Below, one piece after another: positions 8,384 through 15,479 of a stretch of DNA of 20,721 bases. Position numbers and translations under genes: made by a program. The notes under the pieces were generated by a model. It was not told where the DNA came from, made no database searches, and saw nothing but the letters and a program-made list of their open reading frames with translations. Source of the DNA: a virus; IMG/VR virus record IMGVR_UViG_3300033571_016671, positions 1 to 20,721 of that record. One strand, given 5' to 3'. Position 1 is the stretch's first letter. Each line of letters begins with the position of its first letter.

Positions 8384-8971
8384 ATGAGCATACTGGCCGA
8401 CTGGGAAATCAAGTACTTGGCTCAGAACAAGGAGATGATTGCTCCATTTAAAGATCATCTCGTTAGCGAACGAGGTGATCAACGGATCTTGAGTTATGGC
8501 CTCAGTTCCTATGGCTATGACATTCGCCTATCACCTAAACAATGTCTTATCTTTGGCCGCATTCAAGCTGGTGAGTGTGATCCAAAAGAATTTAATCCTG
8601 AAATTCTTTGTGACTCTGAATTATTAGAAGATGAGAAGGGCCAGTATTTTATGCTGCCTCCTTATGGCTATTGTTTAGGTGTTGCCCAGGAACGCCTTAA
8701 ACTTCCTCGTGATGTAACTGTTGTTGCAGTCGGTAAATCTACATATGCCCGGTCGGGGATCTTGGTTAACATCACCCCAGCAGAATCTGGGTGGGAGGGT
8801 TACCTCACTTTAGAAATCAGTAATTGTACTGGTTTGTTTAATCGGATCTATGCTGATGAAGGTATTACACAACTGTTGTTTTATCGCGGCAACCCCTGCG
8901 AGATTACCTACCAGGACCGAAAAGGTAAATACCAGAACCAAGAGAAAGAAATTGTCTTCTCTCAAGTTTAA
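8384..8971 (+). CDS. dcd: dCTP deaminase
   Basis: This would deaminate dCTP to dUTP (or dUMP if bifunctional), supplying the thymidylate route and freeing deoxynucleotides for phage DNA synthesis. Family landmarks are present in order: SSYGYDIRLS at residues 41-50, GKSTYARSG at 117-125, TPAESGWEGYLTLEISN at 131-147 with the putative catalytic Glu144, DEGITQLLFYRG at 159-169, and a C-terminal KGKYQNQ at 180-186. Length (195 aa) is within the family range. The start is the ATG at 8384, with a 33-base gap after the Dam-like gene. It acts in the cytoplasm and fits a nucleotide-pool role with the DUF3310 gene downstream. Confidence 0.93.
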   Translation: MSILADWEIKYLAQNKEMIAPFKDHLVSERGDQRILSYGLSSYGYDIRLSPKQCLIFGRIQAGECDPKEFNPEILCDSELLEDEKGQYFMLPPYGYCLGVAQERLKLPRDVTVVAVGKSTYARSGILVNITPAESGWEGYLTLEISNCTGLFNRIYADEGITQLLFYRGNPCEITYQDRKGKYQNQEKEIVFSQV

Positions 8972-9665: not shown

Positions 9666-10037
9666 ATGCACGGCGCTGCAGGATTTTTAGATAGTTTCGT
9701 TCAAGACGAAGTCAAGTGCCGCTGCCTTGACGAAGATATGTTTGGTGCACCTCTCGATAACGAGGAAAATGATGTACCCTTGTATGACATGTACAACAGG
9801 GGCTTAGCAGCATGCGAGCAGGGAATGGAGCGGACGAATCTCGGGTTGGAGGGGAATCCAGCGTTGCAGGGACAGAGGCCGGGGATGACTGGGTATATCC
9901 CATCGATGGAGGAAGCCCTGGAGCAGTATCCAGGGGCGTCACCAAAGCCAAAGACATTGATGATTTCTTTGCCCTCGGCGGACACCTTGGAGCAGGAACA
10001 ACTCCTGTCAAGGAAGCGCCGTGGTTTGAGCCGGTAG
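9666..10037 (+). CDS. Hypothetical protein overlapping the DUF3310 gene out of frame (123 aa)
   Basis: Read from the ATG at 9666 (MHGAAGFLDSFVQDEVKCRCLDEDMF...); a TTG nine codons earlier is an alternative start. The first ~48 residues, before the overlap, are clearly protein-like (FLDSFVQDEVKCRC, PLDNEENDVPLYDMYNRG). The last 75 residues (TGYIPSMEEALEQYPGASP...LSRKRRGLSR) are encoded in the same DNA as the start of the DUF3310 gene but in another frame. They have a plausible composition and a basic end. No family is recognised. Either the two genes overlap by 226 bases or a frameshift has split a single gene. Confidence 0.55.
   Translation: MHGAAGFLDSFVQDEVKCRCLDEDMFGAPLDNEENDVPLYDMYNRGLAACEQGMERTNLGLEGNPALQGQRPGMTGYIPSMEEALEQYPGASPKPKTLMISLPSADTLEQEQLLSRKRRGLSR
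9798..9802 (+). promoter_or_regulatory. Ribosome binding site (AGGGG) for the DUF3310 gene
   Basis: AGGGG lies nine bases before the ATG at 9812. It is one of the clearest Shine-Dalgarno sites in the window and supports independent initiation of the DUF3310 frame inside the upstream gene, rather than a frameshift. Confidence 0.6.
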
Positions 10038-10321
10038 AAGACAACGGTTGTAAAGATGGTGTTTGTCCAGTTCCATGGGCAACCAAACCTTCCCGTCCTG
10101 AGTTACAACCTGATCTAGTCAATCATCCGCCTCATTACACTGACGGCGGAATTGAATGCATCGAGGCCATTGAAGCGCAATTAACCACTGAAGAATATCG
10201 CGGGTACCTGAAGGGGAATTGTGCCAAGTATATTTGGCGTGAGCGCCATAAAGGCGGGACAGAATCACTGAAGAAGGCACGTTTTTATCTTGATCGTCTG
10301 ATCGAACTTGATGATGGTTAA
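9812..10321 (+). CDS. DUF3310-domain protein (169 aa)
   Basis: The C-terminal domain (residues ~103-168) has the DUF3310 signature: VNHPPHYTDGGIECIEAIEA, then GYLKGNCAKYIWRERHKGG, then SLKKARFYLDRLI. This family is common in phages and is sometimes loosely called a nucleotide kinase; its activity is not established. The first ~75 residues (SSVAGTEAGDDWVYPIDGG, DIDDFFALGGHLG) lie in the DNA shared with the upstream gene. A Cys pair (GCKDGVC) and Pro-rich linker join the two halves. ATG 9812 is the only usual start before the domain and has a good AGGGG site. Its stop shares TTAA with the NblA-like gene on the other strand. Confidence 0.85.
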   Translation: MRAGNGADESRVGGESSVAGTEAGDDWVYPIDGGSPGAVSRGVTKAKDIDDFFALGGHLGAGTTPVKEAPWFEPVEDNGCKDGVCPVPWATKPSRPELQPDLVNHPPHYTDGGIECIEAIEAQLTTEEYRGYLKGNCAKYIWRERHKGGTESLKKARFYLDRLIELDDG

Positions 10322-10620
10322 AAGGGAACACCTTCTTCGTCATCATCCTCTTCGTCGTCGTATATGCATGCGGCGGCGAGTTCTGCTAGTTCTAAATCAG
10401 TAGGTACATCAAAGTCAAGCTTGATGTTTTCATTCTCCAGGATATCTTTGACTGCATGCCACTCCATCAGACGCTGGTGATAGAGGTTCAAAAGCGCAGC
10501 ATATAGCTGGTCCCAGGTCATCTCCGCTGCCTGAAGCTCTGCTTTGCGCATGGCAAATTGAAGTTCTAAAGGCAGTTCAAACTCCCTGGGTTCAGATGAG
10601 CGTTCCATCCCTGTATTCAT
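10318..10620 (-). CDS. NblA-like phycobilisome degradation protein (100 aa)
   Basis: Residues 15-63 resemble NblA (PF04485). ELPLELQFAMRKAELQAAEMTWDQL matches the family pattern LxLExQFxLRxxExxVxxMSxEQ, and ALLNLYHQRLMEWHAVKDIL matches the second helix (LxxLYxQMMxREnxxKxxL). NblA is an adaptor that links phycobilisomes to Clp protease during nutrient stress. Phage copies are known in cyanophages (for example Ma-LMM01 and PaV-LD), where they are thought to dismantle the host antenna. Here the domain carries a ~37-residue C-terminal extension ending in an acidic run (DDEEDDDEEGVPF), absent from short host NblA. Assignment is from pattern recognition; a helix-hairpin protein of other function is possible. 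Confidence 0.5.
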   Translation of the reverse strand: MNTGMERSSEPREFELPLELQFAMRKAELQAAEMTWDQLYAALLNLYHQRLMEWHAVKDILENENIKLDFDVPTDLELAELAAACIYDDEEDDDEEGVPF

Positions 10621-11493: not shown

Positions 11494-11937
11494 TTACCTG
11501 TTCTGACAGTTTACCTGATGCGTGACCCAACGGCAATTCCCTGGGCAGTAATTGCCATAATTATCGGTACGGTCCAGTTCTAAGGCTTGATCTGCTCCGT
11601 TTTCTTCCGCCCATTTTTTAAATGCTGGGTAACTCGAAATCCATTCGTCACATACCTGAATTCCTTTTGCTATGTACGTGGGATATTCTTTACAACGACG
11701 ACGCATTTTTAACCATCGTCCATATAACCAATGGCCTTTATTATATTTGTTTTTGGCATCTCCATGTATTGTATTTGCTTTTTTTGTTGCGTTAATAATA
11801 AAATCAGTACATGAATGCACATGTTTCCTTGCACAAGAACGGCAACGGCCTTGCCATGTTTTCAAAGAATCTTTTCTCTTATTACAAGGCTTAAAACAGT
11901 CTTTGCACAAAGCCACAACGTATTTGTTTTTAGCCAT
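11494..11937 (-). CDS. HNH-like homing endonuclease with N-terminal zinc ribbon (147 aa)
   Basis: The N-terminus carries two Cys pairs (CKDC at 11-14, CRSC at 32-35) suggesting a zinc ribbon. The C-terminal part has the phage HNH family pattern: HGD at 58-60, LYGRWLKMRRRC at 71-82, KGIQVCDEW at 91-99, SYPAFKKWAEENG at 102-114, LELDRTDNYGNYCPGNCRWV at 119-138, then QVNCQNR. These are free-standing endonucleases, often mobile and inserted between phage genes. A role in homing is inference. It is flanked by the 95-residue gene and the 41-residue gene, both on the same strand. Confidence 0.82.
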   Translation of the reverse strand: MAKNKYVVALCKDCFKPCNKRKDSLKTWQGRCRSCARKHVHSCTDFIINATKKANTIHGDAKNKYNKGHWLYGRWLKMRRRCKEYPTYIAKGIQVCDEWISSYPAFKKWAEENGADQALELDRTDNYGNYCPGNCRWVTHQVNCQNR

Positions 11938-15035: not shown

Positions 15036-15398
15036 TTAAACCGCCAGTTGTAACGTGTCTACCTGATACACAAAGAGGTCAATTGCCTCGTATGTCATCC
15101 AAGCTTTAATTCTATCCATCTTAGCCTGATTAAAAAATTCTTGTTTTTTGTACCAGGTCTCCATCTGCTCGCTTGCTTTAGATGTATTACAACGTCGACA
15201 AGCTGGCATCAAATTATTTCGATTACTAGAACCTGATTTGAACCGTGGGATAATATGGTCCAGGCTTGTCGCCTCGTCGCCACAGTACCCACACTTACAG
15301 TCCCAGGAGTCGTAGATGGCTTGTCTAAATCGTTTCTTTGCAAGTTTGGGAGTCAGTTCAAGAAGCAATGCGAGGGGTTCGTGTTCGCAGCTGAACAT
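15036..15398 (-). CDS. HNH endonuclease (120 aa)
   Basis: A compact HNH domain: CKCGYCG at residues 34-40 (first zinc Cys pair), LDHIIPRFKSG at 46-56 with the catalytic Asp-His, NRNNLMPACRRCNTSK at 59-74 with the Asn and second Cys pair. The flanking helices (MFSCEHEPLALLLELTPKLAKKRF and WMTYEAIDLFVYQVD) carry no other domain. ATG 15398 is used; a TTG two codons earlier is possible. Such short free-standing HNH proteins can be homing endonucleases or terminase-linked. Here it sits one base upstream of the large virion gene, so a homing role is more likely than packaging (inference). Confidence 0.85.
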   Translation of the reverse strand: MFSCEHEPLALLLELTPKLAKKRFRQAIYDSWDCKCGYCGDEATSLDHIIPRFKSGSSNRNNLMPACRRCNTSKASEQMETWYKKQEFFNQAKMDRIKAWMTYEAIDLFVYQVDTLQLAV

Positions 15399-15479
15399 GC
15401 TCAATTTGCAGTTACTTTATTTTAATTTGACCCCATACATTTTCAGCTTAAATATAAAAATAAAGAAAAGTAAAAGCTC

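Follow-up and report, generated by a model that had tools for sequence, protein, structure and literature searches.

A cyanophage DUF3310 gene that very probably begins inside its upstream neighbour, and the repeated separation of the two genes in S-EIV1-like relatives

Two adjacent plus-strand genes of a cyanophage, ORF1 of no known family and ORF2 encoding a DUF3310 protein, very probably share 226 nt that are read in different frames, such that ORF2 starts inside ORF1 and carries an N-terminal tail overprinted on that older gene. The pair lies in positions 1 to 20,721 of IMG/VR virus record IMGVR_UViG_3300033571_016671 (the window, i.e., the whole 20,721-nt stretch that was analysed). A terminal overlap is in itself a familiar type, and the unusual part is that this one has been decoupled repeatedly and that a nuclease gene is found at the junction.

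In the arrangement that we propose, both proteins would be made from one mRNA, with ORF2 translation most likely beginning at the internal ATG at 9812, which ribosomes would reach by direct entry or by re-initiation from ORF1. Within the shared stretch, ORF1 would be the frame that coded first and the more constrained of the two, and the predicted ORF2 product would run from the tail through a conserved WFxPV motif and a CxxGxCPxPW linker into the DUF3310 domain. Removal of the tail would mostly involve an HNH/endonuclease VII-like gene lodged at the end of ORF1, with a new start for ORF2.

Results

Two open frames in the window

The features of the pair are as follows.

9666-10037, plus strand: ORF1, 123 aa, no known family
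9812-10321, plus strand: ORF2, 169 aa, DUF3310 protein with a very probably overprinted N-terminus
9812-10037, plus strand: putative dual-coding overlap, 226 nt, ORF1 and ORF2 in different frames
9812-9814, plus strand: ORF2 start ATG, kept as ATG or GTG in overlap relatives
9798-9802, plus strand: AGGGG, Shine-Dalgarno-like, nine bases 5' of the ATG at 9812, in the window and near relatives only
10022-10036, plus strand: WFEPV motif of ORF2; the same bases encode RGLSR, the C-terminus of ORF1
10049-10078, plus strand: CKDGVCPVPW linker motif of ORF2, outside the overlap, kept in overlap and most split relatives
10118-10294, plus strand: DUF3310 domain (PF11753), ORF2 residues 103-161, E 5.9e-18

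The coordinates and frames of the overlap are exactly those given in an earlier note on this DNA, codon position 1 of ORF2 coinciding with codon position 3 of ORF1 throughout. Its placement of the sole usual ORF2 start inside ORF1, with AGGGG nine bases upstream, was also borne out, as the ATG at 9812 is the only ATG, GTG or TTG of ORF2 before the DUF3310 domain in the window. The "good" ribosome site that it described is not conserved, and a Shine-Dalgarno match of at least 4 nt was found upstream of the ORF2 start in 36 of 148 overlap relatives. The shared DNA had further been called G-rich and stop-poor; the former holds (35.4% G, a content reached in 0.2% of 226-nt windows taken from both strands, which average 22.1% with an sd of 3.5), and the latter applies to the ORF2 frame only, the third frame containing 4 stops.

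The PF11753 match of ORF2 exceeds the gathering score (65.1 bits versus a cut-off of 24), and searches of ORF2 against the PDB gave nothing below E 0.001. ORF1 had no match in Pfam, PHROG, NCBIfam or the PDB; the only annotated phage relative found for it is encoded by Synechococcus phage S-EIV1 (52% identity along the full length), and annotated phages gave no match at the DNA level. Because of this relative, and because S-EIV1 has the same gene order, the window is assigned by sequence to a cyanophage of the S-EIV1 lineage.

The overlap among relatives

Searches of viral and genome contigs yielded 170 distinct ORF1 nucleotide sequences from S-EIV1-like cyanophages, to which ORF1 appears to be restricted. 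These are mostly metagenomic contigs related to one another, so their counts are not phylogenetically independent: 149 have the overlap, 20 carry the genes split, and one is cut by a contig end (locus L131, whose ORF2 is broken by a tandem repeat, belongs to the virus type of L132 and was left out of the split count). A shared stretch that is open in both frames thus persists in diverged relatives (149 of 170 distinct sequences), over lengths of about 140-226 nt. The start of the overlap is not fixed, lying about 148 nt before the ORF1 stop in the S-EIV1 group versus 196-226 nt elsewhere. In the distant relatives L241 (52% identity) and L242 (49%), and likewise in S-EIV1, a long second frame is open and runs on into DUF3310, which indicates that the overlap is old.

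The same alignments bear on the possibility, raised in the earlier note, that a single ancestral gene was split by a frameshift or that the contig contains a sequencing error. The juxtaposition of the two frames fits such an origin, and nothing further does. None of the 170 relatives reads through the region in one continuous frame, the same layout recurs in 149 distinct relatives from many samples, and the ORF1 C-terminus is kept where split relatives hold both genes physically apart, leaving this explanation with a practically negligible probability. Likewise, the second frame is not broken in most relatives, such that dual coding was not refuted by this comparison.

Selection for an open second frame

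An ORF1 codon ending in T before a codon beginning with AA, AG or GA creates a stop in the ORF2 frame. Such a stop-forming wobble T occurs at 0 of 1495 sites in the overlap of overlap relatives, versus 647 of 1528 (42%) in the non-overlapping part of their ORF1 and 92 of 261 (35%) at the same region in split relatives; the ORF2 frame is therefore held open beyond what the ORF1 frame explains. In the window alone, 4.4 stops were expected in the ORF2 frame when the ORF1 protein was resynthesised with window codon usage (P of none = 0.005), and permuting only ORF1's own, already biased codons gave P = 0.16, so that the window by itself is suggestive of a selected second frame and the relatives decide. 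ORF1 wobble positions are G in 46% of cases in the overlap, 13% upstream and 23% in split relatives, which accounts for the G-richness of the shared DNA.

Constraint at the ORF2 start and the WFxPV motif

Although the ORF1 codon preceding Cys50 may encode Ala, Leu or Val, its last base is A or, rarely, G, by which the ATG or GTG start of ORF2 is maintained (ATG in 92 and GTG in 4 of 96 in the first set of overlap relatives); Cys50 itself is mostly lost in split relatives. The strongest dual constraint falls on ORF1 codons 119, 120 and 122, which write WFxPV in ORF2 and whose wobbles are fixed in 143/147, 143/148 and 87/90 overlap relatives, respectively, versus 6/15, 8/20 and 4/12 split relatives (again non-independent counts).

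These observations also weigh on where ORF2 translation begins. ORF2 could start downstream of ORF1, as annotated in S-EIV1, with the open frame a by-product of ORF1 composition; split relatives function with such a start, and the tail sequence is little conserved. We nevertheless regard this as very unlikely, since stop-forming T is absent where 42% is normal in the same gene and is regained in split relatives, the ATG and WFxPV wobbles are fixed in overlap relatives only, and past 9812 the window offers no further ATG, GTG or TTG ahead of the DUF3310 domain. A second possibility, also mentioned in the earlier note, is a programmed -1 frameshift by which ribosomes on ORF1 slip into the ORF2 frame to give an ORF1-DUF3310 fusion, and ORF2 is indeed in the -1 frame of ORF1 and open somewhat upstream of the ATG. 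However, no conserved in-phase slippery heptamer was found across 148 overlap loci, where 60 scattered X_XXY_YYZ heptamers occur in phase and the commonest is present in 18. Further, the internal start is kept through ORF1 amino-acid changes, which slipping does not require, and split relatives use an independent start, so that frameshifting seems most improbable. Initiation at the internal ATG remains by far the better fit.

A tail held open but almost free in sequence

Between its ends, the ORF2 tail is constrained very differently. With pairs chosen by total divergence, the overlap/upstream ratio of ORF1 four-fold site divergence is 0.60-1.27, versus 0.58-0.93 in split controls (one single-pair bin left out). 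With divergence hardly below that upstream, most of the tail gives no sign of sequence-level purifying selection. An apparent significant reduction at ORF1 four-fold sites in the overlap (31 of 34 pairs) was set aside since the pairs had been picked by neutral-site divergence and were thus biased; with total-divergence pairs, little of it is left and split relatives show as much, and we do not claim it. At the amino-acid level, purifying selection is seen along ORF1; for ORF2 it is clear at the start codon and in the five closing codons (WFxPV), and not in the middle. As judged from these alignments, selection on the tail is visible in its start codon and its closing WFxPV motif, in the absence of stops and in the richness in G at the first codon position, and the tail appears to need to stay open and Gly-rich while the sequence between its ends is almost free.

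AlphaFold2 placed almost all of ORF2 residues 5-65 at pLDDT <50, versus >90 for the DUF3310 helices, and the first ~65 residues are probably an overprinted, Gly-rich, disordered tail (the predicted S-EIV1 tail contains, for example, MRTNGLHTECGTR). The ORF1 prediction was not usable (mean pLDDT 62, pTM 0.22). No homologue of the tail was found outside the S-EIV1-like lineage. A match to Bacillus phage 055SW001 (38%, ORF2 query 17-169) was considered as a tail homologue and rejected, its score being no better than that of the DUF3310 part alone of Bacillus phage 035JT001.

Natural decouplings

In the 20 split relatives, the DUF3310 gene begins separately, behind ORF1 and near the WFxP motif, and the former second frame inside ORF1 contains 1-9 stops. 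Together with the open frame of the 149, these stops after decoupling agree with the earlier reading that two frames are under selection and, with the relatives at large, support its view of the first 75 ORF2 residues as an overprinted extension. On the ORF1 tree, which has few columns, leaves many forks open and places the long branch L068 unsurely, five state changes are needed between overlap and split, the split loci being a clade of 16 (SH-aLRT 98), two S-EIV1-group members, L068 and L191; L191 is sister to the overlapping L196 (SH-aLRT 99). Loss of the overlap appears the simpler direction of change because split tips are scattered beside overlap sisters. By this comparison, the ORF2 tail is dispensable over evolutionary time, having been removed about five times independently.

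The split relatives also inform which gene is older. Conceivably, the long ORF2 N-terminus came first and the 3' part of ORF1 was overprinted on it, ORF1 being likewise known from this phage lineage only. Against this, decoupled ORF1 remains intact and conserved along its whole length while the ORF2 tail is lost, and positions 1 and 2 in the overlap change less in ORF1 than in ORF2, such that we see only a slim chance for this reverse history and favour ORF1 as the older frame.

In a search for tail remnants (ESRG[AST]TSRN) in split ORF2s, three scored 8-14 bits, as high as none of 200 shuffles, four more were marginal, and the rest failed; this is kept as a lead only, because in L191 such a segment arrived with an inserted cassette.

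A nuclease gene at the junction

Of the 20 split relatives, 15 carry an insert at the ORF1 3' end, about 330-700 nt long. The nine that were read out contain a minus-strand gene related to HNH/endonuclease VII proteins (8e-9 and 1e-12 against phrog_1035 for two members), whose stop overlaps the ORF1 stop by 4 nt. Two examples are given here, and the same place in other split loci also holds such a gene.

L191, 3345-3905, minus strand: HNH/endonuclease VII-like gene at the 3' end of ORF1
L140, 686-1264, minus strand: HNH/endonuclease VII-like gene at the 3' end of ORF1

The occupied L191 and empty L196 sites have common sequence up to the last codons of ORF1 and again from the ORF2 linker; what lies between these parts in L191 is an ORF1 end of its own, together with the nuclease gene and a new start for ORF2. 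The gene is thus present in L191 and absent at the same site in L196, as for a free-standing homing endonuclease, and the difference would resemble homing by such an enzyme with co-conversion. We tentatively suggest, as an idea that may well be wrong, that the overlap junction is a homing site repeatedly invaded by an HNH/endonuclease VII-like gene that each time supplies a replacement for the end of ORF1 and a fresh start for ORF2; a selfish gene would in this way separate an overlapping pair and remove a de novo protein segment. Endonuclease gene insertion would then be a route by which overlaps are dissolved. Separately, two HNH endonuclease genes occur elsewhere in the window on the minus strand, at 11494-11937 and 15036-15404 (PHROG 3e-25 and 9e-26).

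Discussion

In tailed phages, long out-of-frame overlaps are frequently disregarded or annotated wrongly, and the annotation of S-EIV1 illustrates this. S-EIV1 (KJ410740; AHV82247.1, AHV82246.1) shares with the window the order dCTP deaminase, minus-strand gene, ORF1, DUF3310, minus-strand gene and lysozyme, as well as an open second frame with an ATG inside ORF1. It differs in a GenBank annotation without overlap, in which ORF2 starts 30 nt after the ORF1 stop, in the more downstream overlap start noted above, and in another DUF3310 subtype. In S-EIV1 (L158, 4544-4957), the open frame begins inside the preceding gene, about 59 residues beyond the 79-aa AHV82246.1, and the GenBank start of that protein is probably too far downstream. 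A full-text literature search on S-EIV1 and "overlapping" returned nothing on the ORF1/ORF2 pair, the original S-EIV1 paper lying outside its scope. The S-EIV1 lineage is widespread in freshwater and in the sea (its share of marine cyanophage is given in PMC5332604).

Terminal out-of-frame overlaps such as phiX174 A/K are well known in viruses (PMC8227390), as is disorder in overprinted viral proteins (PMC8227390, PMC7017920). Here too, one gene ends within the beginning of the next, which is read in another frame, and the overlapping protein part is predicted to be disordered, but the present case concerns a tailed dsDNA phage, spans 226 nt and offers about five natural decouplings usable as controls. 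With coupled and decoupled forms in close relatives, the cost and benefit of dual coding become directly measurable, as do the requirements for the persistence of an overprinted segment, namely openness and composition rather than sequence.

The DUF3310 domain is related to a domain of T7 gp1.7, a nucleotide kinase acting on dTMP/dGMP (PMC9339283). ORF2 has this domain in common with T7 gp1.7 and the PF11753 proteins of many phages, whereas its tail was found in the S-EIV1-like lineage only and the name of kinase would apply by homology only. Given this likeness and the dCTP deaminase gene nearby (8384-8971), the DUF3310 part plausibly acts in nucleotide metabolism.

Neighbouring observations

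In L104, L105 and L158, a different DUF3310 subtype stands behind the same linker motif (C..G.CP.P), which suggests that the domain downstream of it has been replaced. Several relatives have a 54-56 nt element, FLSSDRNSNFPGENTI, in the linker between CPVPWA and DUF3310 (L086 5423-5477; L131 5417-5524, twice in tandem; also L008, L130, L132, L133 and others), which appears to be a small repeat or mobile piece inside the coding region. Downstream of the pair, a minus-strand gene at 10318-10620 of the window encodes a 100-aa protein with a weak match to NblA, the phycobilisome degradation protein (PF04485, E 2e-4, below the gathering score), and its stop overlaps the ORF2 stop by 4 nt, tail to tail.
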